Shown here in pieces: positions 19,915-43,703 of a stretch of DNA of 64,000 nucleotides. The position numbers and the translations under genes are program-made. This DNA is from Acidobacteriota bacterium. Lineage in GTDB: Bacteria; Acidobacteriota; Vicinamibacteria; Vicinamibacterales; UBA2999. Every line of letters begins with the position of its first letter. Position 1 is the first letter of the stretch. The stretch spans positions 62,001 through 126,000 of the forward strand of contig JAKFYH010000023.1 in NCBI GenBank assembly GCA_021730945.1, given 5' to 3'. The notes under the pieces are model-generated. The model worked only from the letters and a program-made list of their open reading frames with translations. It was not told the origin of the DNA and searched no databases.

Positions 19915-19915
19915 T

Positions 19916-27258: not shown

Positions 27259-29334
27259 TCAGGAAGCGAAAAGGACGGCGGCGGCGGCGCGGCGATCCGC
27301 CCCGGACTGCCGTTCGGTGGTAAAGAGATAGGTCATCCGGTGCGGCAATTCCACCCGCCGGCGCAGCGTCAGCACTGTCGTCTCACGGCGGACACCGTAG
27401 CTGGCCGATACCCACCCGGGTTCCAGTGACCAGGTGGCCTCGTCCGGCAGGTCGAGCGGCAGCAGCCAGCGCTCGGCATCGCCGCGAACCAATCGCACGT
27501 CAGCGCCCTGGCACTCGGCACGGACCTCGGCGTCGAGCGGAAATCGCCATTCCAGCAGGTGCGCGCCGCCGCCGCCAATCGTGTCGGTGATCCCGACCAT
27601 GACCTGGCTCGCGGCCAGCGCTACCGCGCGAGTCACGTGGACAGGCGAGGCCAGCCGCAGGTAGCCAACGTGTGAACCCTGAAACCAGTCGCGGCCGGGT
27701 TCGTGGTGATACGACACGTCTGATGGGGTGGCATCGTTGTGCAATTGCCAGAGGGCGTCGGGACCAATGAATCGGTTCACTTCTTCGCCATCCACCTGGA
27801 TGGTGCTGTGGAAGGCGGTGCTGCGAAACCGGTTACGCCACTCCCTTGAAGCAGTATACAGGTAGGCTCCGCAGTCGGTCACCAGCGGGACGCCGCCCAG
27901 CACCAGCTCAAACGACAGGATGTCGTTGTGGCCATGCCCGCCAATCCCGCGCATGCCGACATTGGCGCAATCGATGAAGACGTGGGTGTCGTCGCGGCGC
28001 AGCACACAGTAGCCGCCGTCAGGAAACGCCACCGACCGGGCCGGCGCCGCCGGCAGCGGCACGGCGTCGAACATCGTCGCGGCGTCGGGACCGAGCATCC
28101 AGAAGGATTCCTCCCAGAACTGGCCCGCCGCCCGCTTGAAGTCGCCACGCGAGAACAGCGCTGCCGCGGTCGACAGCAGGTAGCGATGGTCGCCGATCCG
28201 CTGGCGCCCCAGGATCTGCACCCGGCCATCGTCGGCGTCGCCGACGAGCGGCGCCAGTCCGTCCGGCTTCACGTAGGCTTCCACAAACTCGAACATCCGC
28301 TCGAAGCGTTGCCACTGACCGGCCGGGATCGACTCGCCATGGATGCGCAGCAGTTGGTACGCCGTCAGGAACAATTCGAGGACCAGGCGGTGATAGGCGG
28401 TCGAGGCTTCAAAGTCGACACCGTCCTCGGTGACCTGCACCATCATCTCGTCGAGGACAATGGCGCGCCCCTGGTCCAGCCAACCGCGCCCCTTGGCGGT
28501 GCGCTTGAAGAAGGTGCCGAGAAACACGAGGCCGGCGCCGTCGGTCAGGTAATGGTTGCCGTTGACCGGCCCCTTCTCCAGGTGCGTCGCCACCCACTCG
28601 CCGTGCAAGTAGAGGCTGCGAAGGAGGCGGCCGCGGAACCGGACGTCGGCGCAAGCGCGGCTGCCGGCGAAAAAATAGAACCCCCAGATCCAATTGGCGG
28701 CCCTGAGCGCCACATCCATGGCGCAGATCCAGTTGACACCCTGGCCCCAGGGATTGCGATCGATCCAGTCCGAGACCTGGTCCACGTACTCCTGCGCATA
28801 ACGTTCGTCGCCAGTCAGCCAGTAGGCCTGGCCGAGCACGCCGAAATGCTGACAGCGACTCAGTTCCCACGGCACCTTCACGTCGGTCGGCCGATCGAGC
28901 TCGGAGAACTCGATGTTGGGGCTGTATTGCAGCGGCCAGGTGCGGTGGGTCTTGAAGTCCTCGTGCCACGGCAATGGCGTGCCGAGCGTCACCGAGCCTG
29001 AGCCCAGCAGGTCGAACTCGTGCCGGAGCACACGGTCAGCAGCGGCGACGACCTCCGCACGAGCGGCTGGATAGCGCTGGTGAAAAGCGGTGACCCATTG
29101 GTCGCGGTTCGCGGGTCGCAAGAAGAAGGGCGCGTCAGCCAGCTCCTGCCACAAGGTCTCGATCGATGACGCACCGGTGTCTCGCAGGAGACGGCGATCG
29201 CCGACCAGGACCGGATAGACGTGGGTCCATGGCCGCCTGGCGGCGCGCTCGACTTCCTCGCGAAGCCGGCCAAGTGCATGCGCCGGGTTGGCCGCCGCCT
29301 TCCGGGCGATGAATGCCAAGCGCTGGGGTGTCAC
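27259..29334 (-). CDS. Heparinase II/III family protein (copy 2)
   Basis: 691 residues from GTG 29334 (GTGA overlap). The toroid shows PTDVKVPWELSRCQHFG, NWICAMDVALRAANW, GPVNGNHYLTDGAGLVFLG and STAYHRLVLELF; the PF07940 core has GGHGHNDILSFELVLGG and VTDCGAYLY. It parallels the other heparinase here in layout but is clearly divergent in sequence, so the two may cut different linkages or act at different ends. No signal peptide seen. It lies between the first giant membrane protein and the bi-domain dehydrogenase. Product is likely a uronate-glycan lyase; substrate not known. Confidence 0.9.
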   Translation of the reverse strand: MTPQRLAFIARKAAANPAHALGRLREEVERAARRPWTHVYPVLVGDRRLLRDTGASSIETLWQELADAPFFLRPANRDQWVTAFHQRYPAARAEVVAAADRVLRHEFDLLGSGSVTLGTPLPWHEDFKTHRTWPLQYSPNIEFSELDRPTDVKVPWELSRCQHFGVLGQAYWLTGDERYAQEYVDQVSDWIDRNPWGQGVNWICAMDVALRAANWIWGFYFFAGSRACADVRFRGRLLRSLYLHGEWVATHLEKGPVNGNHYLTDGAGLVFLGTFFKRTAKGRGWLDQGRAIVLDEMMVQVTEDGVDFEASTAYHRLVLELFLTAYQLLRIHGESIPAGQWQRFERMFEFVEAYVKPDGLAPLVGDADDGRVQILGRQRIGDHRYLLSTAAALFSRGDFKRAAGQFWEESFWMLGPDAATMFDAVPLPAAPARSVAFPDGGYCVLRRDDTHVFIDCANVGMRGIGGHGHNDILSFELVLGGVPLVTDCGAYLYTASREWRNRFRSTAFHSTIQVDGEEVNRFIGPDALWQLHNDATPSDVSYHHEPGRDWFQGSHVGYLRLASPVHVTRAVALAASQVMVGITDTIGGGGAHLLEWRFPLDAEVRAECQGADVRLVRGDAERWLLPLDLPDEATWSLEPGWVSASYGVRRETTVLTLRRRVELPHRMTYLFTTERQSGADRRAAAAVLFAS

Positions 29335-31808
29335 CGCTCGGCCTCGCCAGCCGTAACGCCGCCGTCGGCGCGCACGACGCCGAGCCGATCGAGGTTGAAT
29401 CGTAGAGTGCGGCGCCAGCCAGGCGGGCCGCTCAGAACCTGAGGTGCGTAGCGGCCAGGTGCCGCGACGGGAATGACGACCACTGACAAGCCTGGCCGGG
29501 GCACGGTCACCTCCTGCTGAGGCACGCCGTCGCGCAACAGGCGAATGACGACGCCGCCTTGCTCGACCCAGAGCCGCACCACCACGGCATCGTCGATGGC
29601 CATCAGCGCGGGCTTGAAGGTGGCCAGCACCGGCGCCGACGGGTCGGCCGAACCGTCCACGTCCAGGCTGCCTGCACCCACCCGGACCGCCTGAGCCACG
29701 CCACCCTCCAGCCGATCGGTGCCGATAGCCAACCGCTGATCGAGCGACGCATCGACGAACGGAATCTGCGCCCCGCAGTGATCGACCGGCCCCATCACCG
29801 CGACGCCAAGATCGTCCGGGCTCAGGCGTTCCTCGTTGATGAGGCGTTGCGACAAGCGGCGGTGATCCCAATCCGCGGCCAGGCGGACCTCAATCGGCAG
29901 GCCGCCAGGGCCAGCGGCTACGCGGCGGATACTGATCAGCCGGCGCCGCATTTCAGGCCCCATCTCGATACCCTCGAACGAACTGTCTCCCTCGAGCGAG
30001 TAGACCGGAAACCCGAACCGGGCGGTGCCGGCCGCGGTGACGAGCCGGCGCACCACGGCACACGGCGCCCACGACGGCGCAAAGTTGTAGCGCAGCCCAA
30101 TGGTCAGCGCATCATGTGCGCTATCGGCGCTGAACTCCGCGATGTAATACGCGGACTTCAAACCGGGAACCCCCGTGGCCACGCCCTCGACGCCCGGCCA
30201 CCTGGCCAGCCAGCGATTGGGCGCCAGCGCCACGAACTCGGTGGTGACTGGCGAGCCCGGGGAACGGAGGAACGCAGAGAACGTTTCGGTCAAGTGCGCG
30301 GACTGGTAGGCACGTATCGTCGTGGCCGGCACGACTGTCAGCAGCAGGCCCACGACCACCGCCGTCACCAGCGCCCGCCGCAGTGCGGCTGGCGGCTCGG
30401 CGCCCCCTCCGGCATCCGCGCGCCGGCGCATGAGCGCGACGGATCGCTGGCCGATTGTCCAGGCCGCGGCCACGATCACCACGATCGGGATTGCCTGCAG
30501 GTGGAAGTAGTGGCGCGGATCGTACTGGAGCGAGGGATAGCCAACAAGCGCGATCAGGACGAGCGTGGCGAAAAGTGTGCGACTGATCCCGCCCATCGCC
30601 GCGGCGGCCACCAGGACCACGCCCAGCAGCCAACCCCAGCCGCGCCAGCCGTTGAGCCACGCAAAGACATCTCCCAGCACGACCGCCACCGGCCAGCGCC
30701 CCGCACTCTCGGGAGTGGGATTGTCGAAGGCCAGGTTCAACACGCCATCTGCCGCAGCCAGCAGTCGAGTGTATGAGTCGGCAGGAAAATGCCGTAGCCA
30801 TTGCCGCCACAAGTCGAGGCTGGCCGCGTCGTACTCTCGAGATGGCATGGTCACATCCCGTCCGGTGGCCGCGGCCGAGCGGACCCGGAGGACGTTGGTC
30901 AGGTAGGTATCGCTATAGAACGGCAAGTAGCCGTAGGCGGCGGGTTCGACCCCAAGGCGAGAGTCGAACCAGTCGGCATTTCCGAGCAGCACGACGTGAA
31001 AGGCGTTGGACCCGCCGGTCGACAGACGTGACAGCACCGGCCATCCGCAGACCGTGAAGGCGGCGAGGACCACGGCAATGGCCAATGCCTTGTCGCCGAG
31101 GGCTCGCCACGGCCGCGAGCCCCGGAAGAGCACGACCGAGACGATGGCGATGGGCGCCAGGATCGCGACATCCATTCGAAAGCCGATGCCGATACCAATC
31201 ACCGAACCGGTGATGGCTGAGAGCGCCGCCACCGTTCGCCGCGAGGACCCGGCCAGGACCAGGGCAACCACCGCCGGGATCGTTGCCAGCACGAATGCGC
31301 CCTTGGCAAAGTCGCGGAGATGGGGCGCGTAGAGCAACTGCAGCGGCGAACTGGCCAGCCAGGCGGCGCCGATCAAGGCCGGAATCGCGGGCAGGAACAA
31401 GCGCAGCAGGACGAAGACGGCGATGACGGCGACGGCATGCAAGGCGCCGGCGACCTCGGCCAGGCGGTGCCACGAAATCTGCGAGACGCGCCACCAGGTT
31501 CCGACGAAAGCCATCAGGTAGCGGTGCATGTTCTGAAACTGGGATGGCTCCGAGGTGCCGGTCATGTCGATCGCGTCAATTTCGATCGTGTCGGACTGCA
31601 TCAACAGAAAGCGCTGCAGGGCGCCGCCGGGGACGGGATGGGGATTGACGAACCCCCGGCCCGACGCCACCATCACGGCCGCGCCAAATTCAGCCTGCGC
31701 GAACGGCTGCCAGGGCGACGCGGCGAATGCGGCTCGACCGGCCGTGAAGCTCATGCCGGCCAACAGCAGCACGGCGACGGCTTCCGCGATCAACCGCCGC
31801 CGGCTCAA
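29331..31808 (-). CDS. Large GT-C-like membrane protein, paralogue 1, with C-terminal beta-module
   Basis: 825 residues from TTG 31808, chosen because TTGA overlaps the upstream TGA and preserves the first membrane helix (LIAEAVAVLLLAGMSFTAG). The N-terminal two thirds has about ten membrane segments; the first outer loop has conserved Glu40 before AVMVASGRGFVNP. LRDFAKGAFV, GIGIGFRMDVAILAP, SNAFHVVLLG and HYFHLQAIPIVV match paralogues 2 and 3. GT-C enzymes use polyprenyl-phosphate sugars; acidic first loop and membrane topology suggest this, but no named family was matched. A soluble extracytoplasmic C-terminal third ends in a divergent beta-module. Upstream is a UDP-GlcNAc 2-epimerase. Confidence 0.83.
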   Translation of the reverse strand: MSRRRLIAEAVAVLLLAGMSFTAGRAAFAASPWQPFAQAEFGAAVMVASGRGFVNPHPVPGGALQRFLLMQSDTIEIDAIDMTGTSEPSQFQNMHRYLMAFVGTWWRVSQISWHRLAEVAGALHAVAVIAVFVLLRLFLPAIPALIGAAWLASSPLQLLYAPHLRDFAKGAFVLATIPAVVALVLAGSSRRTVAALSAITGSVIGIGIGFRMDVAILAPIAIVSVVLFRGSRPWRALGDKALAIAVVLAAFTVCGWPVLSRLSTGGSNAFHVVLLGNADWFDSRLGVEPAAYGYLPFYSDTYLTNVLRVRSAAATGRDVTMPSREYDAASLDLWRQWLRHFPADSYTRLLAAADGVLNLAFDNPTPESAGRWPVAVVLGDVFAWLNGWRGWGWLLGVVLVAAAAMGGISRTLFATLVLIALVGYPSLQYDPRHYFHLQAIPIVVIVAAAWTIGQRSVALMRRRADAGGGAEPPAALRRALVTAVVVGLLLTVVPATTIRAYQSAHLTETFSAFLRSPGSPVTTEFVALAPNRWLARWPGVEGVATGVPGLKSAYYIAEFSADSAHDALTIGLRYNFAPSWAPCAVVRRLVTAAGTARFGFPVYSLEGDSSFEGIEMGPEMRRRLISIRRVAAGPGGLPIEVRLAADWDHRRLSQRLINEERLSPDDLGVAVMGPVDHCGAQIPFVDASLDQRLAIGTDRLEGGVAQAVRVGAGSLDVDGSADPSAPVLATFKPALMAIDDAVVVRLWVEQGGVVIRLLRDGVPQQEVTVPRPGLSVVVIPVAAPGRYAPQVLSGPPGWRRTLRFNLDRLGVVRADGGVTAGEAER
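29370..29640 (-). other. Recurring beta-module (divergent), end of membrane paralogue 1
   Basis: About residues 724-815: VLATFKPALMAIDDA, GGVVIRLLRDGVPQQE, VVIPVAAPGRY. The G-V-x-I-x-L-L-x-D centre and the terminal P-G-R-Y match the SGNH-protein copy best. Confidence 0.5.
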
Positions 31809-32902
31809 CTCAGCAGGAACCCACGGAACACGTCGGTGATGCGTTCGGCAGTGTGGCCGTCCCACAGTTCCGGCACACGCGGAGGGGTATTGGTGGCCAT
31901 GGCCTCGTGGTAGCCGGCAATGATGTCGGCGGTCCGGGTGCCCACCAGCCGGTTGGTGCCATGCGTGATGGTGATCGGCCGTTCCGTGTTCTCCCTCATC
32001 GTCAGGCACGGAATCCCGAGCGCGGTCGACTCCTCCTGCAGACCGCCCGAGTCGGTCAGGATGATCCGGGCGTTCGAGGTCAGGCTCAGGAAGTCGGTGT
32101 AGCCCAACGGCTCGGTGAGCACGAACCCGGACATCGCCGCGTCCAATCCAAACTCCGCCAGCCGAGTCCGCGTCCGCGGATGCACCGGGAACACGATCGG
32201 CATGTCGCGCGCCACGTGCTTCAGCGCCGCCAGAATCGCATTGAATGTCTCCGGGTGATCGACGTTCGATGGCCGGTGCAGCGTCAGCACGGCATAACGC
32301 CCCTGCTCGACCGCCACTTTGTCGCGCAGGCGGTCGAACCTCGCCATTGGCAAATGCCGGCGCAGCGTGTCGATCATGATGTTGCCGACGAAGCGAATCC
32401 GCTCAGGCGGCACGCCTTCGGCCAGCAGGTTCTCGTCGCCATCACGCGAGGGGGTCAGGAGCAGGTCCGCCAGCCGGTCGGTGACGATGCGGTTGACCTC
32501 CTCCGGCATCGCGCGGTCACGGCTGCGCAGCCCGGCCTCAACGTGGGCAATCGGAATCACCAGCTTGGCCGCGACGATGGCGGCGGCCATCGTCGAGTTG
32601 ACGTCGCCGACCACGACCACCAGGTCCGGCTTGATGTCGAGGCACACCTCCTCGAATGCAATCATCACCTTGGCGGTCTGGACTGCGTGCGAGCCTGAGC
32701 CGACGCCAAGGTCACGATCGGGAACCGGCAGGTTCAACTCACGGAAGAAGCCCCCGGCCATCTTCTCGTCGTAGTGCTGGCCGGTGTTGATCAACACCTG
32801 CCGGAAGTGCGGCTCGGCGTGCATGGCCTCCATGAGCGGCGCGATCTTCATGAAATTGGGCCGGGCACCGACCACGTGGATGACGGTTCGTGTATGGGTC
32901 AT
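31805..32902 (-). CDS. wecB: UDP-N-acetylglucosamine 2-epimerase, non-hydrolysing (copy 2)
   Basis: 365 residues from ATG 32902 (ATGA overlap). VVGARPNFMKIAPLM, INTGQHYDEKMAGGFF, VVVGDVNSTMAAA, IAHVEAGLRSRDRAMPEE, LLTPSRDGDENLLAEG, VFPVHPRTR, LTDSGGLQEESTALG and MRENTERPIT show all family motifs. It differs from copy 1 at many positions (for example GDVNS versus GDTNS, RENTERP versus RDETEW), so this is an older split rather than a recent duplicate. One could act on UDP-GlcNAc and the other on a diaminouronate derivative; the sequence alone does not say which. Confidence 0.93.
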   Translation of the reverse strand: MTHTRTVIHVVGARPNFMKIAPLMEAMHAEPHFRQVLINTGQHYDEKMAGGFFRELNLPVPDRDLGVGSGSHAVQTAKVMIAFEEVCLDIKPDLVVVVGDVNSTMAAAIVAAKLVIPIAHVEAGLRSRDRAMPEEVNRIVTDRLADLLLTPSRDGDENLLAEGVPPERIRFVGNIMIDTLRRHLPMARFDRLRDKVAVEQGRYAVLTLHRPSNVDHPETFNAILAALKHVARDMPIVFPVHPRTRTRLAEFGLDAAMSGFVLTEPLGYTDFLSLTSNARIILTDSGGLQEESTALGIPCLTMRENTERPITITHGTNRLVGTRTADIIAGYHEAMATNTPPRVPELWDGHTAERITDVFRGFLLS

Positions 32903-35517
32903 GGTTGTAGTGGAAGCGCCTGATAGGTGATGGCGCGCACGGTGAACTCGCCGGGCGGGTTGGCGCAGTTCGAGAACACGATTCGGACTTGCCGGTTGGC
33001 GCCGGTCGGCGCCAGCAGCGCCGTGCGGGGCGGCACCGGCACCAGCAGCCAGTGCTGCTGGACGCCATCGAGCACGCCCACGCACATCTCGCCCTTGGTC
33101 ACCGAGCCGGCGATCTGGATTGCAACCAGCTGCTGCGCCGGCACGTCGAGCGGCGGGCTGACCAACTGGTAGCCGGATGGAACGTTGTCGCTCTTGACCG
33201 TGAAGGTGCGGCCACGCTTTGAAACCACGACCTGGCCGGCGGCGCTCCAAGTGTCCAGTGCCGGCGCGGCCTCGGCAAGTGGCGCAAAATTGAAGCGGCG
33301 CCAACCGGATCCGCGCATGCTCGGCGCCGAGGGCAACGGACTCACCGGAGTGCCGGCCGCCGTGACTCGCGGATATTCGAGCAGGCCCTGGTGCAGCGGC
33401 GCTGGCCGCCAACCTGGCCCGAGCACCGCCATCAAGACCGGCAAGGGCAGGCGCTCGGGGTTGGTCGCGCGAAAGACACCGGTGACACAATTCCGCTGAG
33501 CGGCCGGTACGCCGAAACCATCGAAGCGGTTCCACGACGACCCCAGGTGGTAGTAGGCCGGCACGAGCAAATGCGATGGAGCGTCACCAATCGGCACGCT
33601 GAAGTCCCGCGTAAACTCGGTATCGTAGGTGCCGCTGGCCGAGGTGTATTTGAGGGCCACCATCACTTGGCCGGCCTGGCAGCGCTTCTCGAACACCACG
33701 TTGAAGTATCGCTGCCGCAGAGCGATCGGCGCCGCCGCCTCTTCGCCGGCGGGGACGACGCCATCGATCCGCAGGAGGACTGCTGTCTTCCACGCATCGG
33801 GATTCTTGAGGTAGGTCTCATTCCAGGTCGCGACCGGCCGGCCGGCGGCGAAGATGGTGTCGGCCAGGGGCTCGTCGACGGCGTCCACCGGCGTCCATTC
33901 AGCCGCCAGAGTGGTCTCGATCAGCGCGGTAACGCTGCGCTGCTGCCAGGCGCGGGCGCCGGCGCGCAGACCCACGATCGCCAGAACGACGGTCGCCAGT
34001 GCTGCGGCTCCGAGCGCCATTTCTCGCCCGTAGCTTCGCAGCGCCGCGACGCCAATCGCGCGGCCCTCCCGAAAGCGCCAGACGATGTGCCAGCCCAGGC
34101 CGAGCGGCAACTGGACCGCAAGAATGGCCATCAGGATCGGGACGACATCGAGGTGAAAGATGTGGCGGCGCGAGAACTGGAGCATCGAGTAGGCGCAGAG
34201 GTACAACACCACGACCAACGCCGTGGCCCCGAGCCGCCGATCGAATGCGCCCGCCAGCACCAGCACCAGGACCGTGGCCGGCAGTTCCCAACCCTCGAAC
34301 AGACCGAGCGCCCAGGCGCGCCACGCCGCCAACACCTGCAGAGCGCCGGCGGCCTGCATGGCCGGCATCGCCTCCGCCATCTGGCGAACGCCGCCATCGA
34401 ACGGCATCCTGAAGATCTGAAAAGTCGCGCCCAGTCCGCGGGTCAGGATGTCGGCGGGAAACTGTCGCGCCAGCACGCCGAGCAGCCGGCCGCCGGCGAC
34501 GTCGTACTCGGCGGAGCCAAGGCCGATCGGCATCGTCGCGCCCTGCTTCAGCAGCGCATGCGACGCGATCACCGAGTAGGCAAAGCGGTCGCTGTACTGG
34601 GCGCCGATATCATAGGGTGCCGGCACGATGCTGAGGACGCGATCGAATGGCTGCACCAGGCCCAGCACCACGACGTGGGCGGAGTTGCTGCCCGATGAGA
34701 TCGACCGCAGGATAGGACTGCCGGTCAGCAGGAAGGCGGCGACAAACAGCGCGACCGCCATGGCCTTGAGACCCAAGGGTCGCCACGAAAACCCCGCTGG
34801 CACGAGCACGGCCGCCAGCACGAACAACGGCGCCAGCACCAGGGCGTCCATGCGCAGGCCGATCCCCACACCGAGCAACGCGCCGCTCACGGTCATCGGC
34901 ACCAGCGTCGCCTTCGAGCCGGTGGCCAGGGCCCTGCGAATCACCCACGCCAACGCCAGCCACAACACGGCGAAGCACGGAAACTTCACGAAGTCGCGCA
35001 GGGAGACGACCTCGTTCAACAGCGGCGAACACGCTACCGCCGCCACCCCGCACACGGCGAGGACTCGTCCCGACACCATTCGATACAGGCCGTAGACGCA
35101 TACCAGCGCCAACCCGAAGAGAGCGGCGATGTAACGGTCGAGGGTCTGCCACGACACCCCACCCAGCCGCATGGCCCAGGCCGCGCCGTAGATCGAATAA
35201 CGGTTGGCGAGGGCAATGCCCAGGGCCGGGGTTGGCGCGCCACCCCACGAAAACTCCTGGCACGACACGGCATCGCTCTGGCGCGCGACGAACTTTTCGA
35301 CCACCGGTGAAGGCAGCGCCGGTTCGCTCATGCCGAACCCGCAACTCATCATCACGGCCGGCCGCAGTTCCCAGTCGATCAACGTCACCACGCCGGCAGC
35401 AGTCAGGTGACGGACGGCCAGCCGGTAGCTGCCCATGGCAACGGCGGCGACGATCACCAGCTCGACCGCCAGCCGGAGCCAGCGCGAGCGGGCAAGCGCG
35501 GTCAGCCGTGTGATCAT
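32899..35517 (-). CDS. Large GT-C-like membrane protein, paralogue 2, with C-terminal beta-module
   Basis: 872 residues. One N-terminal helix, then an outer loop with TLIDWELRPAVMMSCGFGM (Glu50), about nine further membrane segments up to about residue 530, then an extracytoplasmic region with CGFG- and QAGQVMVALKYTSASGTYD-type beta strands and a terminal beta-module (757-872). Shared with paralogue 3: SWGGAPTPALGIA, LLNEVVSLRDFVKFPCFA, GVGIGLRMDA, GSAEYDVAGGRLLG, RRHIFHLDVVPILMAILAVQ. Predicted glycosyltransferase using a polyprenyl-phosphate sugar, by topology only. Start ATG 35517 overlaps the upstream TGA. Neighbours: aminotransferase and 2-epimerase. Confidence 0.85.
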   Translation of the reverse strand: MITRLTALARSRWLRLAVELVIVAAVAMGSYRLAVRHLTAAGVVTLIDWELRPAVMMSCGFGMSEPALPSPVVEKFVARQSDAVSCQEFSWGGAPTPALGIALANRYSIYGAAWAMRLGGVSWQTLDRYIAALFGLALVCVYGLYRMVSGRVLAVCGVAAVACSPLLNEVVSLRDFVKFPCFAVLWLALAWVIRRALATGSKATLVPMTVSGALLGVGIGLRMDALVLAPLFVLAAVLVPAGFSWRPLGLKAMAVALFVAAFLLTGSPILRSISSGSNSAHVVVLGLVQPFDRVLSIVPAPYDIGAQYSDRFAYSVIASHALLKQGATMPIGLGSAEYDVAGGRLLGVLARQFPADILTRGLGATFQIFRMPFDGGVRQMAEAMPAMQAAGALQVLAAWRAWALGLFEGWELPATVLVLVLAGAFDRRLGATALVVVLYLCAYSMLQFSRRHIFHLDVVPILMAILAVQLPLGLGWHIVWRFREGRAIGVAALRSYGREMALGAAALATVVLAIVGLRAGARAWQQRSVTALIETTLAAEWTPVDAVDEPLADTIFAAGRPVATWNETYLKNPDAWKTAVLLRIDGVVPAGEEAAAPIALRQRYFNVVFEKRCQAGQVMVALKYTSASGTYDTEFTRDFSVPIGDAPSHLLVPAYYHLGSSWNRFDGFGVPAAQRNCVTGVFRATNPERLPLPVLMAVLGPGWRPAPLHQGLLEYPRVTAAGTPVSPLPSAPSMRGSGWRRFNFAPLAEAAPALDTWSAAGQVVVSKRGRTFTVKSDNVPSGYQLVSPPLDVPAQQLVAIQIAGSVTKGEMCVGVLDGVQQHWLLVPVPPRTALLAPTGANRQVRIVFSNCANPPGEFTVRAITYQALPLQP
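32899..35517 (-). repeat. Imperfect direct repeat of about 2.6 kb, copy A
   Basis: The whole gene for paralogue 2 is repeated at 39419-42043 in the same orientation, with the protein and DNA similar along the full length (about four in five residues identical where I compared by eye). Confidence 0.8.
32902..33249 (-). other. Recurring beta-module, end of membrane paralogue 2
   Basis: About residues 757-872: DNVPSGYQLVSPPLDVPAQQ, GEMCVGVLDGVQQHWLLVP, VRIVFSNCANPPGEFTVR. This copy and the one in paralogue 3 are the best-preserved examples. Confidence 0.8.
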
Positions 35518-36653
35518 GCGGAGGTCGCAGCCACAACGGCGGTCGTCACGCCATCGGCCACGTAGTCGACCTCGTCGTCGGTCAGCTTGGGGTACAGCGG
35601 CAGCGTGACCGTGGCATCACCGATCCGTTCGGCTTCCGGGAACATGCCGCGGCTGAAGCCGAAGGTCTCGCGGTAGTACTTGAGCAAGTGCACGGCGCGA
35701 TAGTTGACGGCCACGCCAATGCCGCGCGCCTGCAGGTCGGCCAGTACCTGGTCGCGCCGTTCCGGCGCCACCCAGATCGTGAACAGGTGGCGAGCCGAAC
35801 GGGCGCCGTCGACGACGGCCGGGAACCCGATGCCCTCCACGCCGCGAAATGCCGCCTCGTAGCGCAGGGCGACGCGCTGGCGTTGTCCCCACAGCTCGCC
35901 GATGCGCGACAGCTGCCCCATCAGCATCGCCGCCTGCAGGTTGGTCATGTTGTACTTCCACCCCAGGGCCTCGAGGTCCCAGTGGCGATAAGTGCCGGTG
36001 TAGCGATCGGCGGCGCTCGCCGACATGCCGTGCTGCCGCAGCAGTCTCACCTGCCGGGCGACGTGCTCATCATTGGTGACCACCGCGCCACCCTCGCCGC
36101 TGGTGATGTTCTTGGTCGCATAGAAACTGAAGCAGGCCGCGTCCGAAAGCTGTCCGGGCCGCACGCCGTCGCGCTCGGACTCGATCGCATGCGCGCAGTC
36201 TTCGATCAGCTTCACGCCGGCGGCATCGGCCGTCGCCTTCAACCGCCGCATGTCGGCCATCAGGCCATACAGGTGGACCGGCACGATGGCCTTGGTCCGC
36301 GGGGTGATGGCCTTGGCCACGGCTTCGGGATCGATCAATCCGGTCTCCGGATCGACGTCGACGAACACCGGTGTGGCTCCGGTGTAGATCACGCAGTTGG
36401 CGGTCGCCGCGAATGTCATCGGCGTGGTGATTACCTCGTCGCCGGGACCGACGCCGACGGCGAGCAGCGCCAGGTGAATGGCCGCGGTGCAACTGGTCAC
36501 GCCAACGGCGTGCCGTGCGCCCAGGTAGCCGGCAAAGGCCTCTTCGAACGCCTTGGTCTGCTGGCCGGTGGTGAGGAACACCCCGCGGCAGACATCCACC
36601 ATCCGCTGGATGTCGTCCTCTTCGAGGTTGTGCTTGTAGAACTCGACCTTCAT
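35514..36653 (-). CDS. DegT/DnrJ/EryC1/StrS aminotransferase (copy 3)
   Basis: 379 residues. Family motifs: TSCTAAIHLALLA, EDCAHAIESE (Asp near 152), FSFYATKNITSGEGGAVV with the Schiff-base lysine at about 181. N-terminal VCRGVFLTTGQQTKAFEEAF is standard for DegT enzymes. It would make an amino sugar from a nucleotide-linked keto sugar. WlbA and WlbB need a WlbC/WbpE-type aminotransferase; this or copy 1 could serve, but neither stands out as the specific orthologue. A Shine-Dalgarno AAGGA precedes ATG 36653. Its TGA overlaps the start of membrane paralogue 2. Confidence 0.92.
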   Translation of the reverse strand: MKVEFYKHNLEEDDIQRMVDVCRGVFLTTGQQTKAFEEAFAGYLGARHAVGVTSCTAAIHLALLAVGVGPGDEVITTPMTFAATANCVIYTGATPVFVDVDPETGLIDPEAVAKAITPRTKAIVPVHLYGLMADMRRLKATADAAGVKLIEDCAHAIESERDGVRPGQLSDAACFSFYATKNITSGEGGAVVTNDEHVARQVRLLRQHGMSASAADRYTGTYRHWDLEALGWKYNMTNLQAAMLMGQLSRIGELWGQRQRVALRYEAAFRGVEGIGFPAVVDGARSARHLFTIWVAPERRDQVLADLQARGIGVAVNYRAVHLLKYYRETFGFSRGMFPEAERIGDATVTLPLYPKLTDDEVDYVADGVTTAVVAATSA

Positions 36654-36658
36654 GTTCG

Positions 36659-36663
36659 TCCTT
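36659..36663 (-). promoter_or_regulatory. Shine-Dalgarno AAGGA before aminotransferase copy 3
   Basis: AAGGA on the minus strand, five bases before ATG 36653, in an 18-base gap. One of few clear ribosome binding sites here, because most genes rely on overlap with the preceding stop. Confidence 0.7.
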
Positions 36664-36671
36664 CGGCCGCG

Positions 36672-37700
36672 CTACAGCAGCCGGCCGTCCATGGCCAGGC
36701 CATCGACCAGGCGCTTGGCGTCGATGATGTGCTGATACCACTTCACGGTAATGGTCTTGGGGCCGGTGTCGACCCGGCCCAGTTTCAGCGCCTCGTAGAT
36801 CTCGCGGGCACCGTCGGCCGGCGACTGCGTGACGCGGAACCCGAGGTCACGCTCGGCGCGGTCGAACGAGACCCGGTAGTCGCGCGCGTCCGAGTCGTCC
36901 GGAACAACGTCGAGGGCAATCGGAAACGGGATGTTTTCGCGGACGATGTAGGCAAGGCTCAGCACCTGGTAGTTGTGCTCGCTGCTGCCGACGTTGAAGA
37001 CCTTGCCGTTGATGACCGAAGCCGGCAACTCCAGTTGCGACACGAACGCGTTGGCGGTGTCGCGCACGTGAACGATGGGCCGCCACTGCTTGCCGCCCCC
37101 CAGCACGAAGATCTTGCCCTTCTGCACCGCGTTGATGGTCATCAGGTTGACCACCAGGTCGAAGCGCATTCGCTTCGACAACCCGAACACCGTGGCCTGC
37201 CGCAGAGCGCTGGCGACGAAGTCGCCGGAAGCCAGCGGCAGGATGTCCTGTTCCGCCTTGAGGTTGGCGTCGGCGTAGGTCGACACCGGATTGGGTGTGC
37301 TGTCCTCGGTCAGCACGCCGTCGCCGGCGCCGTAGACCGAACACGAACTGGCCAGCACATAGCGTTTGACGCCAGCCTTCCTGGCCAGGGTCGCGGTGCG
37401 GGCGCGCGCCTCGTGATTGATGGCGTAAGTCAGCCGCTCGTCGAGGGCGCCTGCCGGATCGTTCGACAGCGCCGCCAGGTCGCACACCGCGTCAACACCC
37501 CGCAGGTCGGCCTCGTTGATATCGCGATTGTCCTTGCGCAGCAACGTGAACGACGGATGCGCCCGGGTGTCGCCGAGCAGGTCATCGCCGAAGAAGTAGC
37601 GGTCGAGGCCGATGACCCGCTTGCCCTTCGCCAGCAGCTGATCCACGAGGGTCGAGCCGATGTATCCGCCGGCGCCGGTTACCAGAATCGTCTCGCTCAC
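36672..37700 (-). CDS. NAD-dependent sugar epimerase/dehydratase-like protein, catalytic Lys replaced
   Basis: 342 residues, extended SDR. NAD motif TGAGGYIGS (about 8-16), LASSCSVYG before the active site. Where YxxxK is expected the sequence is Y142-A-D-A-N146, so Lys is replaced by Asn; Lys148 lies two positions further. The Tyr and the Ser/Thr-rich loop are kept. The protein may use the shifted Lys, have altered chemistry or be inactive. The overall fold and length are intact and there is no frameshift. It lies between the WecD-like GNAT and aminotransferase copy 3. Start ATG 37700, one base from the upstream stop. Confidence 0.88.
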   Translation of the reverse strand: MSETILVTGAGGYIGSTLVDQLLAKGKRVIGLDRYFFGDDLLGDTRAHPSFTLLRKDNRDINEADLRGVDAVCDLAALSNDPAGALDERLTYAINHEARARTATLARKAGVKRYVLASSCSVYGAGDGVLTEDSTPNPVSTYADANLKAEQDILPLASGDFVASALRQATVFGLSKRMRFDLVVNLMTINAVQKGKIFVLGGGKQWRPIVHVRDTANAFVSQLELPASVINGKVFNVGSSEHNYQVLSLAYIVRENIPFPIALDVVPDDSDARDYRVSFDRAERDLGFRVTQSPADGAREIYEALKLGRVDTGPKTITVKWYQHIIDAKRLVDGLAMDGRLL

Positions 37701-38417
37701 CTAGGTCCTCTCCTTCAGCAGGATGCACCCCATCGTCATATCCGTGCTGTGCAGGTCAAAGCGCAGTCGATGGTAGAAATTCATGGCCTGCAAGTTCTTG
37801 ACCTGGGTCTTGACGCGAACGGTCGCGACCGCCTGCGATCTGAACCACTCGACCGCCGCGGTCATCAAGGCCCGGCCGGCGCCGCGCTGACGCGCGCGAT
37901 CGACCACGCCAATCAGGACAACCTCTCCGGCCCCGTCTTTCGCCATCTTGCAGGTGACAAAACCTGCCTCAGGGATCATCAGCACCGCGTCGGCGGCAAG
38001 GCCGCGCACCGAGTTGGCCAGCCAGGCAGCATGCAAGCGATCGGCGTCGGCCTTCGAGTAGAACGGATCGTGGTAGAACCGGCTCAGCGGAAACAGGGAC
38101 ACCGAGGCCTGCTGCAGCCACGGGATGTCGGCCTCAGTGGCGTGCCGGACCGGTGACGGGCCGCGGCCGGCCCCCTGCAAGTAGCGCCCGACCTCTCCCT
38201 GCCACGTGACGCCGAGGTCGGTGAGGTAGAACCCGCGTTGCTCGAGCGCCCGCACGGCGGCGGCGTCCTCCACGGGCGGGCGGCTGATCAGGTAGTCATA
38301 GCCGTCGCGCCCGGCCTCATCCAAGTCGCCGGTGATGCTCGCCTCGGTCCAGACCCTGGTCAGCGCACCAATTCGGCGGCCGAAGAACTCCGAATCCCAC
38401 GGCAACAGTTCAATCAT
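37701..38417 (-). CDS. GNAT acetyltransferase resembling WecD/RffC
   Basis: 238 residues. The N-terminus IELLPWDSEFFGRRIGALTR is the hallmark of WecD/RffC-type dTDP-4-amino-4,6-dideoxygalactose acetyltransferases, which start with the same W-D-S-E-F-F-G. The acetyl-CoA loop is VVDRARQRGAGRALMTAA (R-x-x-G-x-G/A). It likely acetylates a 4-amino sugar, for which one of the DegT aminotransferases here could make the amine. Start ATG 38417 overlaps the GT2 gene upstream by eight bases. Confidence 0.88.
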   Translation of the reverse strand: MIELLPWDSEFFGRRIGALTRVWTEASITGDLDEAGRDGYDYLISRPPVEDAAAVRALEQRGFYLTDLGVTWQGEVGRYLQGAGRGPSPVRHATEADIPWLQQASVSLFPLSRFYHDPFYSKADADRLHAAWLANSVRGLAADAVLMIPEAGFVTCKMAKDGAGEVVLIGVVDRARQRGAGRALMTAAVEWFRSQAVATVRVKTQVKNLQAMNFYHRLRFDLHSTDMTMGCILLKERT

Positions 38418-39390
38418 CTGCGGACAACGCCTCGCTCACGAAGTACAGGGGACGCCGCTGCACCTCCTTGTAGGTCTTGCCGATGTACTCGCCCATAATC
38501 CCGAGCACCAGCAACTGCACGCCGCCCAGGAAGTAGATCGAGATGATGATCGACGCCCACCCTTCCACGGGGTAGCCATAGATCAACTTGGCGACTACGA
38601 GCGCCACACCCGCGGACGAACTGACGACCGCCGTCGCCAGTCCAACGATGCTCGCGACCCGGAGCGGCGTGACCGAAAACGACGTGATGGCATAGAGGGC
38701 CAGCCGCAATTGCCGCATGAAGTTGTAGTTGGTGCGGCCGGAGTGCCGGGCACGGTGCTGGACGTCGACGGTGGTGACGCGGAACCCGGCCCAGGCCATC
38801 ATGCCGTGCACGAACCGCTGTGACTCGCGCATCTGGACCAGTGCGTCAACGAAGCGCCGGCTCATCATCCGCAACATCATCTGGGCCGGTGGCATCTGCA
38901 ATCCCGAGACCCGATTCATGGCCCACCAGAACAGCCGCGAGTTGAGGCGCTTCAGCAGTGGATCCTGGCGGTCGACGCGAGTGGTGTACACCAGGTCGAA
39001 TCCGGCCCGGTGCCGCTCGTAGAGGGCTGGGATTGCGCTGGGCGAATCCTGCAGGTCGCCGTCCATCACCACCACGGCCTTGCCGGAGGCGCGATCAAGG
39101 CCGGCCGTGACCGCGATGTGATGCCCGAACCCACGCGACAGTTTGAGTCCGCCCACGCGTGGATCCGCCGCGTGCGCCGCCTCCACCAGCGCCCACGTGT
39201 CGTCCGTGCTGCCATCGTCAACGAAGATCACTTCCCAGGCGTCCGCCGGCCAGTGCTCCGCTTGCGCCAGGGCCACCAGCGCCTCGGTCAACTCGGCGAC
39301 GAGGGGCTGGACGTTGCCGGACTCGTTGTGCGCCGGCACGACGACTGAAAGCTCGAGGCGGCGGAAACTGAGCGGGTCGACCACCGTCAC
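38410..39390 (-). CDS. GtrB/DPM-like glycosyltransferase family 2 with two C-terminal membrane helices (copy 1)
   Basis: 326 residues from GTG 39390, which has GGAG eight bases upstream; the frame further up is a shadow of membrane paralogue 3. LSVVVPAHNESGNVQPLVAE, VIFVDDGSTDDTW and VVVMDGDLQDSPSAIPAL are the GT-A core; MMLRMMSRRFVDAL, then two membrane helices (IVGLATAVVSSSAGVAL; IIISIYFLGGVQLLVLGIMG) and GEYIGKTYKEVQRRPLY end it. This GtrB type makes undecaprenyl-phosphate sugars for periplasmic GT-C transferases. The giant membrane paralogues upstream and downstream are candidate partners. Confidence 0.92.
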   Translation of the reverse strand: MTVVDPLSFRRLELSVVVPAHNESGNVQPLVAELTEALVALAQAEHWPADAWEVIFVDDGSTDDTWALVEAAHAADPRVGGLKLSRGFGHHIAVTAGLDRASGKAVVVMDGDLQDSPSAIPALYERHRAGFDLVYTTRVDRQDPLLKRLNSRLFWWAMNRVSGLQMPPAQMMLRMMSRRFVDALVQMRESQRFVHGMMAWAGFRVTTVDVQHRARHSGRTNYNFMRQLRLALYAITSFSVTPLRVASIVGLATAVVSSSAGVALVVAKLIYGYPVEGWASIIISIYFLGGVQLLVLGIMGEYIGKTYKEVQRRPLYFVSEALSADD

Positions 39391-39398
39391 AGGCAATT

Positions 39399-39402
39399 CT
39401 CC
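39399..39402 (-). promoter_or_regulatory. Shine-Dalgarno GGAG deciding the GTG start at 39390
   Basis: GGAG on the minus strand, eight bases before GTG 39390, in a 28-base gap. Confidence 0.65.
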
Positions 39403-39418
39403 AGAGCCATAATCCGTG

Positions 39419-42043
39419 TCACTGTTCTCGAGGCACGGCCTGGTACGAGATCGAGCGTACCGTGAACTCGCCAGGAGGGTTGGCGCAGTTCGAGAACACG
39501 ATCCGGACCTCCCGGTTGTCGCCGGTCGGTGCCAGCAGCGCGGTGCGGGGCCGCACCGGCGCGAGCAGCCAGTTCTGCTGACCGCCGTCGAGCACACCAA
39601 CACACATCTCACCCTTGGTCACGGCGCCGACGATCTGAACGGCAAGGACCTGCTGTGCCGGCACCTCAAGTGGCGGGCTGACAAGCTGATAGCCGGAGGG
39701 AATGTTGTCGCTCTTGACCGCGAAGCCGCGGCCGCTCCTCGAGACCACCACGTGTTCGGCGGCGCTCCAGGTGTCCAGTGCCGGCGCGGCATGGGCAAGC
39801 GGCGAGAAATTGAAGCGGCGCCAACCGGAACCGCGCAAGCTCGGCGCCGTGGGCAGTGGTTCGACGTGGGTGCCGGCAGCCGTGACCCGCGGAAATTCGA
39901 GCACGCTTTGGTGCAAGGGCCGCTGCTGCCAGCCCGGTCCGAGCGCCACTGTCAACACCGGCAAGGGCAGCCGCTCAGGATTGGTTGCGCGAAAGACGCC
40001 GGTGATGCAGCTCCGCTGGTCGGCAGGCACGCCGAAGCCATCGAAGCGGTTCCACGACGACCCCAAGTGATAGTAGGCCGGCACCAGCAAGTACGACTGA
40101 CCATCGCCAGTAGGCACGCTGAAGTCCCTCGTAAACTCAGAGTCGTAGGTGCCGCTGGCCGAGGAGTACTTCAGGGCCACCGCTACGCTGGCGGCCTGGC
40201 AGCGGTTCTCGATGACGACCTTGAAATAGCGCTGTCGCAAATCGGGCGCCGCTGCCGCCTCGTCGCCGAAGGGCACCACGCCGTCGACCCTCAACAGGGT
40301 GGCCGACTGCCAGGCGTCGGGATTCTTCATGTAGGTCTCGTACCAGGTCGCGACCGGCCGGCCGCCGGCAAACATCGTGTCGACCAGGGGCTCGTCGGTG
40401 ACGTTGACCGGCGTCCAGTCAGCCGCCAACGTGGTCTCGAGCAGCGCGGTGACGCTGCGCTGCTGCCAGGCCCGAGCGCCGGCGAGCAAGCCCGCGAACG
40501 CCAGAACAACTGCCGCGAGCGCGGCGGCGCCGAACGCCATTTCACGCCCGTAGCTCCGCAGCGCGGCAACGCCGATCGCGCGGCCTTTGCGGAAAGCGGT
40601 CGCGATCCGCCAGCCAAGGCTGAGCGGTAGCTGGACGGCGAGGATGGCCATCAGGATGGGGACGGCATCGAGGTGAAAGATATGACGGCGTGAGAACTGA
40701 AGCATCGAGTAGGCGCAGAGATACAACACGATTACGAATGTTGTGGCGCCAAGCCGCCGATCGAACGCGCCCGCCAGCACCAGCACCAGTACGGTCGCGG
40801 GCAGTTCCCAGCCCTCGAACCAGCCCAGCGTCCAGGCGCGCCACGCCGCGAGCGACTGCAAGGCGGGTGAGGTCTGCATGGCCGGCATCTTCTCCGCCAC
40901 TTCCCGAACCCCGCCATCGAACGGCATGCGGAAGATCTGAAAGGTCGCGCCCAACCCACGGGTCAGGATGTCGGCAGGAAACTGGCGCGCCAGGACACCC
41001 AGCAGCCGGCCGCCGATAACGTCGTACTCGGCCGAGCCGAGACCAATCGGCAGCGTGGCGCCCTGCTTGAGCAAGGCGTGCGAGGTGATCACCGTGAAGG
41101 CATAGCCATCGCTGTATTGCGCGCCGAGGTCATAGGGCGCCGGCTCGACGGCCAGCGCGCGATCGAACGGCACGACCAGGCCCAGCACCGCGAAGTGGGC
41201 GGCATTCGACCCGGACGAGAGCGACCGCAGGATCGGCATGCCAGACGCCAGGAACATGACCGCGAAGGCCGCCACCGCCAGCGCCTTGACGCCGAGTTGC
41301 CGCCAACTGAACCCGGGCGCCACCACCAGGGCGACAGCGATGAAGAGCGGGACGAGAATGAAGGCGTCCATCCGGAGGCCGATCCCGACGCCCAGCAGCG
41401 CTCCGCTGACTGCCATCGGCACCACCGTTGCCTTCGCTCCCTCGCCCAGGCCGCGCCGAATCACCCAGGCGAGCGCCAGCCACGCCGCGGCAAAGCACGG
41501 AAACTTCACGAAGTCGCGGAGTGAGAGAACTTCGTTGAGGAGCGGCGAACACGCGACCGCGATCACACCGCATACCGCCAACACCCGCCCGGTGGCCATG
41601 CGGTAGAGGCCGTAGACGCAGATCATGGCAAGACCGAAGAGAAACGCCAGGTAGGAGTCCAGCGTCTGCCAGGACACGCCTCGCAGCTTCATCGCCCAGG
41701 CGGCGCCGTAGATGGAATAACGGTTGGCGAAGGCGATACCGAGTGCCGGGGTCGGCGCGCCGCCCCAGGAGAAGTCCCGGCACGACACCGCATCGCTCTT
41801 TCGCGCCACGAAGCGCTCGACGACCGGCGAGCGCAGGGCCGGCTCGCGCATGCCGAAGCCGCAGCTCATCATCACGGCCGGCCGCAGCTCCCAGTCGATC
41901 AACGTCACGACGTCGGCAGTGGTGAGGTGGCGAAAGGCCAGCCGATAGCTGCCCGTGAACACCGCGGCGACGATCACCAGCTCGATCGCCAGCCGCAGCC
42001 GGCGCGATCGGACCAATTGCAGGAGAGATTGCTGGGGTATCAA
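39419..42043 (-). CDS. Large GT-C-like membrane protein, paralogue 3, with C-terminal beta-module
   Basis: 874 residues from TTG 42043 (TTGA overlap with the methyltransferase stop). It shares nearly the whole sequence of paralogue 2: TLIDWELRPAVMMSCGFGM (Glu52), SWGGAPTPALGIAFANRYS, LLNEVLSLRDFVKFPCFA, GVGIGLRMDAFILVP, GSAEYDVIGGRLLG, RRHIFHLDAVPILMAILAVQ, and the terminal beta-module (759-874). Predicted membrane glycosyltransferase by topology and an acidic first loop; not matched to a named family. A GtrB-type gene sits directly downstream and another two genes upstream. Confidence 0.85.
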   Translation of the reverse strand: MIPQQSLLQLVRSRRLRLAIELVIVAAVFTGSYRLAFRHLTTADVVTLIDWELRPAVMMSCGFGMREPALRSPVVERFVARKSDAVSCRDFSWGGAPTPALGIAFANRYSIYGAAWAMKLRGVSWQTLDSYLAFLFGLAMICVYGLYRMATGRVLAVCGVIAVACSPLLNEVLSLRDFVKFPCFAAAWLALAWVIRRGLGEGAKATVVPMAVSGALLGVGIGLRMDAFILVPLFIAVALVVAPGFSWRQLGVKALAVAAFAVMFLASGMPILRSLSSGSNAAHFAVLGLVVPFDRALAVEPAPYDLGAQYSDGYAFTVITSHALLKQGATLPIGLGSAEYDVIGGRLLGVLARQFPADILTRGLGATFQIFRMPFDGGVREVAEKMPAMQTSPALQSLAAWRAWTLGWFEGWELPATVLVLVLAGAFDRRLGATTFVIVLYLCAYSMLQFSRRHIFHLDAVPILMAILAVQLPLSLGWRIATAFRKGRAIGVAALRSYGREMAFGAAALAAVVLAFAGLLAGARAWQQRSVTALLETTLAADWTPVNVTDEPLVDTMFAGGRPVATWYETYMKNPDAWQSATLLRVDGVVPFGDEAAAAPDLRQRYFKVVIENRCQAASVAVALKYSSASGTYDSEFTRDFSVPTGDGQSYLLVPAYYHLGSSWNRFDGFGVPADQRSCITGVFRATNPERLPLPVLTVALGPGWQQRPLHQSVLEFPRVTAAGTHVEPLPTAPSLRGSGWRRFNFSPLAHAAPALDTWSAAEHVVVSRSGRGFAVKSDNIPSGYQLVSPPLEVPAQQVLAVQIVGAVTKGEMCVGVLDGGQQNWLLAPVRPRTALLAPTGDNREVRIVFSNCANPPGEFTVRSISYQAVPREQ
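39419..42043 (-). repeat. Imperfect direct repeat of about 2.6 kb, copy B
   Basis: Second copy of the repeat at 32899-35517, same orientation, with about 3.9 kb (four genes) between them. Confidence 0.8.
39422..39769 (-). other. Recurring beta-module, end of membrane paralogue 3
   Basis: About residues 759-874: DNIPSGYQLVSPPLEVPAQQ, GEMCVGVLDGGQQNWLLAP, VRIVFSNCANPPGEFTVR. Confidence 0.8.
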
Positions 42044-42750
42044 GCGACGGTCTTGGTTCCGCTGACGAAGTACTGACCCCCGAGCGGCAGCCAGCCCAGG
42101 TATGGCTCGATGAATCCGAGCCACGCGGCCAGCGACTCGGGAACAAACAGCATGTAGGTGCACCGCACGTCGGTAAAGCCGGCCTCGGTAAACATCCGGT
42201 GCAGTTGCTTCGCGGGGATCATCTGGCAACCCTGATCGATCTCGGCCCGCTCGAAGATGCGGCGGGTGATGGGATTCAGTGGATTGTGCTCGAAGATCGA
42301 CACCACGCCGCCCGGCCGGACGACGCGGCCGAGTTCCCCTAGGTGCCGCGCCTGTTGCTGGGGAGCAATGTGATGGTAGACGCAGAACGCAAACGCCACG
42401 TCGAAACTGTGATCGGCAAACGGTAACGCGAACGGCTCGGTCGCGGCGACACGACCGCCCGGCTTCACCCGCTGCAACATCGGGAGCGACACGTCGGTGC
42501 CGACGACCGAAGAGAACGGCCGCAGGATGCGCATCGCAGTCCCAGTGCCGCACCCGGCGTCCAGGAGGCGAAGATGCGACTCGCGGCTTCGTCCCAGACG
42601 ATGCCGAATCTCGCGCACCAGCGCATGACACTTCTGGCGGATAAAGAAATCGCCATCGGCCGCAAACTGCCGGCGCAGCGGGTCATCGAGCCGGCGCGCA
42701 TAGTCGTCGGCGAATCCGTCGAACGGCTCACCGATCCGGGGCTCAGTCAT
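42040..42750 (-). CDS. Class I SAM-dependent methyltransferase
   Basis: 236 residues from ATG 42750 (ATGA overlap). LRLLDAGCGTGTAMRIL is motif I, VVGTDVSLPMLQRVKP motif II region, FALPFADHSFDVAFAFCVYHHI motif III in two stretches, and RVVRPGGVVSIFEHNPLNP motif IV/V: a UbiE/Methyltransf_11-type enzyme. In this position between a GtrB-type glycosyltransferase and a giant membrane protein it may methylate a lipid-linked sugar or nucleotide sugar. Substrate unknown. The longer frame reaching 42894 is a shadow of the upstream gene. Confidence 0.9.
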   Translation of the reverse strand: MTEPRIGEPFDGFADDYARRLDDPLRRQFAADGDFFIRQKCHALVREIRHRLGRSRESHLRLLDAGCGTGTAMRILRPFSSVVGTDVSLPMLQRVKPGGRVAATEPFALPFADHSFDVAFAFCVYHHIAPQQQARHLGELGRVVRPGGVVSIFEHNPLNPITRRIFERAEIDQGCQMIPAKQLHRMFTEAGFTDVRCTYMLFVPESLAAWLGFIEPYLGWLPLGGQYFVSGTKTVA

Positions 42751-43703
42751 GGCTCGTTCAACCGATCCTTGATCAAGTACATCGGCCGGCCCTTGACCTC
42801 TTCGTAAATGCGGCCGATATACTCGCCCAGCAGGCCGATCGACAGCAGCTGGAGCCCCCCCAGAAAGAGCGTCGCCACCATGAGCGAGGTCCATCCCTGG
42901 ATGAGGCCCGTGCCCCCAAGCAGCTTGTACAGCACGAAGAACACCATGAGGGCCAGGCTGGTCGCGGCCAGGGCCAGGCCGGCATGCGAAGCGATCCGCA
43001 GCGGCTGGCTTGAGAAGCCGGTGATTCCGTCGAACGCGAACTTCAGCATCTTGCCCGACGAGAACTTGGTCGTGCCGCCGTGCCGCGCGCTGCGATCGTA
43101 GAACACCGCCACCTGGTTGTAGCCCACCCAGGTCACGAGGCCCCGGATGAACCGGCTGTGTTCCTGCAGTTGCCGCAAGTCGTTGGCCACGCGCCTGGAC
43201 ATCAGACGAAAGTCACCGGTATCGACCGGAATCTCCAACGTCGTCATCCGCCGGATCAGCCGATAGAACAGGCGCGCCGTCGTCTTCTTCCACCACGTTT
43301 CGCCTTCACGGGTCCGGCGTTGTGCGTAGGCGACGTCGTAGCCCTCCGTGTACTTCTCGTAGAGGGCGGGAATCAGCTCGGGCGGGTCCTGGAGATCCGA
43401 ATCCATGACCACGACCGCGTCGCCGCGGCTGGCTTCGAGTCCGGCCGTGATCGCCACCTGGTGGCCAAAGTTCCGGCTGAGGTTGAGTGCCCGGACGGCG
43501 CGATCGGCCGAAGCCAGCGCCATGATGACCTGCCACGAGCGGTCGCGGCTGCCATCGTTGACGAACACGATTTCGTGCGTGCGGTTCATCGCGACCAGCG
43601 CGGCCTTCAAACGCTTGTACAACTCATCCAGACCGTCTTGCTCGTCGTGCACGGGCAAGACCACGCTGATCTCCACGGTTCCAACCCCTGGTGCAGGCGT
43701 CAC
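42747..43703 (-). CDS. GtrB/DPM-like glycosyltransferase family 2 with C-terminal membrane helices (copy 2)
   Basis: 318 residues from GTG 43703 (GTGA overlap). ISVVLPVHDEQDGLDELYK, IVFVNDGSRDRSW, VVVMDSDLQDPPELIPALY and DTGDFRLMSRRVANDL show the GT-A core; two membrane helices follow (ASHAGLALAATSLALMVFFVL and SLMVATLFLGGLQLLSIGLLG in parts) and GEYIGRIYEEVKGRPMYL closes. Similar overall plan to copy 1 but clearly different sequence, so the two may load different sugars on undecaprenyl phosphate. Directly downstream of AsnB copy 3. Confidence 0.93.
   Translation of the reverse strand: MTPAPGVGTVEISVVLPVHDEQDGLDELYKRLKAALVAMNRTHEIVFVNDGSRDRSWQVIMALASADRAVRALNLSRNFGHQVAITAGLEASRGDAVVVMDSDLQDPPELIPALYEKYTEGYDVAYAQRRTREGETWWKKTTARLFYRLIRRMTTLEIPVDTGDFRLMSRRVANDLRQLQEHSRFIRGLVTWVGYNQVAVFYDRSARHGGTTKFSSGKMLKFAFDGITGFSSQPLRIASHAGLALAATSLALMVFFVLYKLLGGTGLIQGWTSLMVATLFLGGLQLLSIGLLGEYIGRIYEEVKGRPMYLIKDRLNEP

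Follow-up and report, generated by a model that had tools for sequence, protein, structure and literature searches.

The 64,000-nucleotide stretch of DNA analysed here (the window), from an Acidobacteriota bacterium of the order Vicinamibacterales, encodes three paralogous large membrane proteins which likely adopt the GT-C fold. They form a divergent, unnamed GT-C branch near the PMT_2 family, new in sequence but not in kind. These proteins are probably enzymes which take sugars from undecaprenyl phosphate (Und-P), loaded by GtrB-type synthases, and move them in the periplasm onto a polysaccharide exported by a Wzm/Wzt system, while a module on their soluble tail would hold the polymer. The analysis shows the homology, the fold class (through profiles and structures), the arrangement of helices and loops, the gene neighbourhood, the sharing of the module and the purifying selection on B and C; catalysis, donor, acceptor, glycan binding by the module and the location of the tail are inferred.

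The main genes examined in the window are related to polysaccharide synthesis and all lie on the minus strand, as do all window features listed below. Paralogue A (29331..31808) has 825 residues, a TTG start, 11 predicted transmembrane helices and a soluble tail with a beta-module. Paralogue B (32899..35517; 872 residues, ATG start) is a recent duplicate of paralogue C (39419..42043; 874 residues, TTG start). The start of each gene overlaps the stop of its upstream gene by four bases (TTGA, ATGA and TTGA, respectively), which supports both the start calls and co-translation. B and C are identical in 80% of the protein and 80.7% of the DNA sequence, and A shares about 28–30% protein identity with both. 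An earlier reading of this DNA made from the letters only, here called the sequence-only reading, had proposed three paralogues of these lengths, and their homology is indeed far beyond chance: P0001 matches an orthologue in tblastn at 6e-35, and strong HMM matches lead to further family members. Its count of three was incomplete, as two additional copies are located on the same contig and in the same gene region, 12–19 kb past the window edge. The motifs AVMxxxGxG[FM], LRDFxK and RHxFHL are present as described, and so is GIG[FL]RMD, which had been written in a slightly garbled form.

The sequence-only reading had matched the proteins to no named family, and Pfam, NCBIfam and PDB sequence searches with the three window proteins likewise give nothing significant; against PMT_2 (PF13231) in particular they produce no match at E≤1. 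The relationship becomes visible when profiles are compared. A profile of 25 family members aligns at 95.4% in hhalign (E 1.8e-8) with a PMT_2 profile built from relatives, and the profile of the three window proteins alone at 88.7%. All controls stay below 1% (MFS 0.2%, Wzy_C 0.2%, reversed profiles 0.7–0.8%), and by this comparison both an MFS transporter and an O-antigen ligase or polymerase of the Wzy_C type were rejected. The signal is located in TM2–TM7; the C-terminal membrane part, or its EL5 part, shows no significant profile similarity to PMT_2 when taken alone. A single orthologue (L009, 54% identical to B) passes the PMT_2 cut-off of 26.1 with 27.7 bits. The window proteins fall below this cut-off, and therefore the family is not filed as PMT_2. 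The proposal of a new GT-C family thus holds insofar as the window proteins are covered by none of the curated families; they are still distant relatives of PMT_2 and not an isolated fold.

Structural comparison points in the same direction. It rests on a poor AlphaFold model, since the membrane part, predicted from four input sequences, reaches a pLDDT of 44.8. Foldseek searches with this model return mostly GT-C enzymes in the top rows, at weak E-values. After VIA-align, GT-C proteins fill every one of the top 32 rows, with Z from 11.6 to 6.2 over 223–335 residues, and unrelated rows reach Z 5.8 at most. The GT-C rows comprise STT3, AglB, ArnT, AftA, PMT, PglB, ALG9, ALG3, GPI mannosyltransferase I, PIGU, PimE and AftB. 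It seems unlikely that a poor model would yield an all-GT-C match list by accident.

The hydropathy and the Lys/Arg pattern predict 11 transmembrane helices, with the N terminus inside and the tail outside. Of the outer loops, EL1, which follows TM1, and EL4, which precedes the final four helices, are large. An arrangement of 11 helices with four marked outer loops corresponds to the published GT-C scheme (PMC6801728), and the helix and loop layout of the family matches it. Membership in GT-C is supported by the profile comparison with its controls, the L009 score above the PMT_2 cut-off, the structural matches and the layout. Neither a clear transporter match nor the lack of a GT-C core, the two outcomes named by the sequence-only reading as speaking against its proposal, was found.

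The family consists of at least 26 proteins, with the G013 contig record counted once. Its genes occur in nine of the 193 genomes of the class, only two of the nine genomes of the genus carry them, and a genome which has the family usually has several copies. The plasmid collection contains only one relative, a truncated gene adjoining IS110 genes on the Rhizobium sp. Q54 plasmid LR606148.1 (L142 7845-8915), with a gene for GtrA and further polysaccharide genes nearby; this relative points to transfer between phyla. According to the tree, the paralogue groups predate the genera and the B/C duplication is recent. The divergence of B and C (dN 0.13, dS 0.65) shows that both copies are maintained by purifying selection. 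The duplicated stretch comprises just the gene, whose two copies flank a cassette of GtrB1, a GNAT, an epimerase and a DegT aminotransferase. In the relative G013, which belongs to the same family as the window's genome, the corresponding position carries a single gene of the protein family, and the cassette is absent.

The surrounding cluster encodes glycosyltransferases, WecB, DegT enzymes, methyltransferases, asparagine-synthase-like proteins and export subunits. The DegT aminotransferase, epimerase and GNAT, all sugar-building, lie between the duplicates B and C (35514..38417), and a WecB-type UDP-GlcNAc 2-epimerase lies between A and B (31805..32920, right end approximate). For polysaccharide export there is a Wzm-like ABC-2 membrane subunit (19093..19962) and a Wzt-like ATPase with a Wzt_C domain (56247..58256). 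The two export genes are about 36 kb apart, and a second Wzt/Wzm-like pair is located outside the window (C5:133-136 kb). Several other genes of the region deserve mention. Positions 51395-55496 hold a PPDK-like protein, an APS kinase and a sulfotransferase in a row, which suggests a sulfated polymer or the transfer of another activated group. Two heparinase II/III-like genes (19916-21907 and 27259-29871) are found inside the biosynthetic cluster and possibly encode lyases for a uronate-containing polymer. The window also contains an ordinary PMT_2-family GT-C gene (61675-63039; 454 aa, 32 bits, above the cut-off) and an ORF of 246 aa (6684-7424) which has no Pfam match and is conserved in G013 and G005. 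No RNA families were found in the region.

The soluble tail with a beta-module, which had been reported, is present. In all complete members the tail starts with a beta-rich domain, and some members lack the module of about 120 residues which otherwise follows. The module occupies 29334..29738 in A, 32902..33270 in B (about residues 750–872) and 39422..39790 in C (about residues 752–874). Its model is a beta jelly roll with pLDDT mostly 62–75 and lower in one loop. Most of its structural matches are carbohydrate-binding modules (CBMs): CBM86 (Z 11.3), CBM4 (Z 11.1), a porphyran CBM, CBM22 and CBM29, within a range of Z 11.3–9.5. The sequence of the module has no significant match in Pfam or PDB and corresponds to no known CBM family. 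The predicted fold is thus CBM-like, and the module may bind glycans.

All nine module copies detected in the window's genome are located within this one gene region. Four of them belong to GT-C genes of the family. The other carriers are an SGNH/AlgX-like protein and a nucleotidyltransferase-methyltransferase fusion, both with a C-terminal module (45681..47249 and 48775..51300, respectively), a Zn-dehydrogenase/Gfo-Idh-MocA fusion with the module inserted in its N-terminal part (24594..27239), and two other multi-helix proteins. The module was found in all seven searched genomes with the GT-C family and in none of the six without it. Of the two multi-helix carriers, one falls into a PMT_2 lineage of its own (97%), which means that different types of GT-C protein have exchanged the module; L025 (G000:C5:57631-59544), a multi-helix protein with the module, matches none of the GT-C, MFS and Wzy profiles. 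The SGNH/AlgX-like carrier is possibly an acyltransferase acting on the same polymer. The insertion into the dehydrogenase fusion recurs in G005 and G013; it is odd to find a module of glycan type in an enzyme that is presumably cytoplasmic. As enzymes expected to be cytoplasmic carry it too, the module is not a marker of periplasmic location. Such a cluster-private module is a more unusual feature than the GT-C branch itself.

The module also bears on the acceptor. The relatives in PMT_2 include enzymes acting on lipid A (ArnT) and on protein (PMT), and the sugar could likewise be delivered to lipid A, a lipid-linked precursor or a protein instead of an exported polysaccharide. The CBM-like module on the tail and the position of the genes within a Wzm/Wzt polysaccharide cluster argue against this, and we consider such an acceptor rather unlikely.

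The conservation of the outer loops, with the exception of EL1, also fits the GT-C scheme. The EL2 residues R174-D175-K178 (25/25 members), the basic residue at 222 in EL3 (Arg or Lys, 25/25) with D224 beside it, and R451-H452 in EL5 (R451 in 25/25) are invariant or nearly so, and D175 and R222 align with the Asp and Lys of PMT_2. Highly conserved polar residues occupy 22 columns, of which 19 fall in periplasmic loops or at the beginning of the tail; when outer and inner loops alone are compared, the difference has the expected direction and is not significant (p 0.27). In EL1, C59 and C86 are both present in 21 members and both absent in four, among them paralogue A. This joint presence or absence suggests a disulphide bond, as would fit a periplasmic EL1. 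The four members without the pair are one clade and an outgroup, which corresponds to one or two events.

The remaining signature, the acid in EL1, behaves differently from the other three. An acidic residue in this loop is essential in many GT-C enzymes and is the presumed general base. The conserved Glu in the first outer loop, pointed out by the sequence-only reading, is common to the three window proteins, but across the family E50 occurs in only nine of 25 members, and as a family-wide catalytic residue it was rejected. No column from 48 to 53 is acidic in more than nine of the 25. An Asp or Glu somewhere within positions 44–54 is found in 23 members, at shifting columns, and two members have none; in PMT_2, as a yardstick, one common Asp column is present in 21/29. 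A DExxY-type EL1 motif at the canonical PMT_2 column is absent from the family. D82 (Asp or Glu in 21/25) was considered as a replacement and dropped, since both D82 and its neighbour D85 are absent from two of the three clade-A members. The large EL4 contains the invariant residues D310, D356 and H281, which are candidates for the missing base. A module-bearing GT-C protein, L029 (G013:C104:54920-57148), has matches to PMT_2 (90%) as well as to the new family (69%), seems to retain an EL1 Asp and is a possible intermediate.

The lack of a positionally conserved EL1 acid is also what would be expected of pseudo-enzymes, in which the GT-C fold is kept, catalysis is lost and the protein serves as a subunit binding lipid-linked sugars or the polymer. 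PIGU of the GPI transamidase is such a non-catalytic binding subunit with the GT-C fold, and the U chains of this complex (7wld_U and 8imx_U) are among the GT-C matches. A loss of catalysis is nevertheless improbable, given that all 25 proteins compared keep the EL2 Asp, the EL3 Arg/Lys and the EL5 Arg-His, that several copies per cluster adjoin dedicated GtrB genes, and that B and C are under purifying selection.

The supply of the donor is suggested by the gene neighbourhood. Two GtrB-type genes had been reported in this block, and both encode strong homologues of GtrB sll0501 (PDB 5ekp), of the polyprenyl-phosphate sugar transferase type: GtrB1 (38410..39375; a GT2 domain with transmembrane helices, E 2e-66) and GtrB2 (42750..43700; E 2.5e-100). 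The link has become stronger, as in six of seven genomes a family member has a GtrB gene at a distance of about 2 kb or less; GtrB homologues are few in the window's genome, and four of its six are in the family's loci. In known systems, GtrB makes the Und-P-sugar for a periplasmic GT-C enzyme (PMC11127046). Neighbouring GtrB genes alone do not prove the donor, and STT3, AglB and PglB rank near the top of the structural comparison (Z 11.6–8.3), so that a diphosphate-linked oligosaccharide could be used in place of a single sugar on a monophosphate, in a role like that of an oligosaccharyltransferase, ligase or polymerase. We give little credence to this donor, because the monophosphate-dependent ArnT and AftA are tied with those matches (Z 10.9–11.3), the family resembles PMT_2 in sequence and not Wzy_C, and the GtrB adjacency is recurrent. 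A search of the complete genome at E≤0.01 gave no GtrA-type flippase (PF04138), which counts against the preferred reading. This absence, together with the polytopic nature of the three window proteins and their lack of a Pfam match, would suit a family of transporters or flippases outside GT-C, but the profiles do not match MFS and both structural comparison and topology indicate GT-C, so that this rival reading is largely refuted and scarcely credible.

For the preferred reading, GT-C transferases fed by GtrB, the following sequence of events can be proposed. The 11 helices of the paralogues most likely span the inner membrane, with the N terminus inside and the tail in the periplasm. On the cytoplasmic side, GtrB would link a sugar to undecaprenyl phosphate, and a flippase would turn the Und-P-sugar over. 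On the periplasmic side, the GT-C protein would then move the sugar onto the polysaccharide of the cluster, during or after export by Wzm/Wzt, while the CBM-like tail module may keep the polymer close to the active site. Multiple copies per cluster could provide different side-chain sugars, with one GT-C protein for each linkage, and the duplication of B and C around the GtrB1-GNAT-epimerase-DegT cassette may represent the recent gain of one more donor sugar.

If so, the GT-C class gains an uncharacterised branch in which the presumed general base is not fixed and the other three loop signatures are, and this combination makes the mechanism testable by mutation. The module, which in the searched genomes occurs only alongside the family, marks at least five kinds of protein, and it offers a handle on how a polysaccharide pathway brings its enzymes to a single polymer. 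A broader proposal, possible but distinctly tentative, combines both features: a GT-C lineage without a fixed EL1 acid would use another base (e.g., D310 or H281), and a cluster-private glycan-recognition module, fused to membrane, periplasmic and cytoplasmic enzymes, would let all of these work on one shared polymer, inside as well as outside the membrane.

Among known systems, PMT_2 (PF13231), including ArnT-like enzymes, resembles the family in the TM2–TM7 profile (95%), the EL2 Asp and the EL3 basic residue, and ArnT also in structure (Z 11.0); the family differs in lacking the canonical EL1 Asp column and in having a large EL4 and a two-domain soluble tail. The mycobacterial arabinosyltransferases EmbA/B/C and AftA/AftD have the GT-C fold in common with it (AftA Z 11.3), and Emb and AftD carry CBMs (PMC11127046), whereas the family has no sequence match to any PDB chain. 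The predicted fold of the module is similar to the beta jelly rolls of CBM families 4, 22, 29, 86 and others (Z about 10–11); unlike the known CBMs, it has no sequence match in Pfam or PDB and is also inserted in or fused to cytoplasmic-looking enzymes. The Gtr systems of O-antigen glucosylation (GtrA, GtrB and a GT-C protein) are comparable by gene neighbourhood, with GtrB adjoining the GT-C gene in both cases, but the genome of the window lacks GtrA and the GT-C proteins described here have a long soluble tail. Similar in layout is GT136, ORF12 of Citrobacter youngae, a GT-C enzyme with a CBM-type beta domain which follows the last helix at the C terminus and binds the polymer (PMC11127046). 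Its gene likewise belongs to a polysaccharide locus with an ABC transporter, and it adds side chains in the periplasm. The donor of GT136 is Und-P-ribofuranose, provided by a UbiA-type synthase and a MATE flippase, whereas the synthases found in the cluster described here are of the GtrB type.
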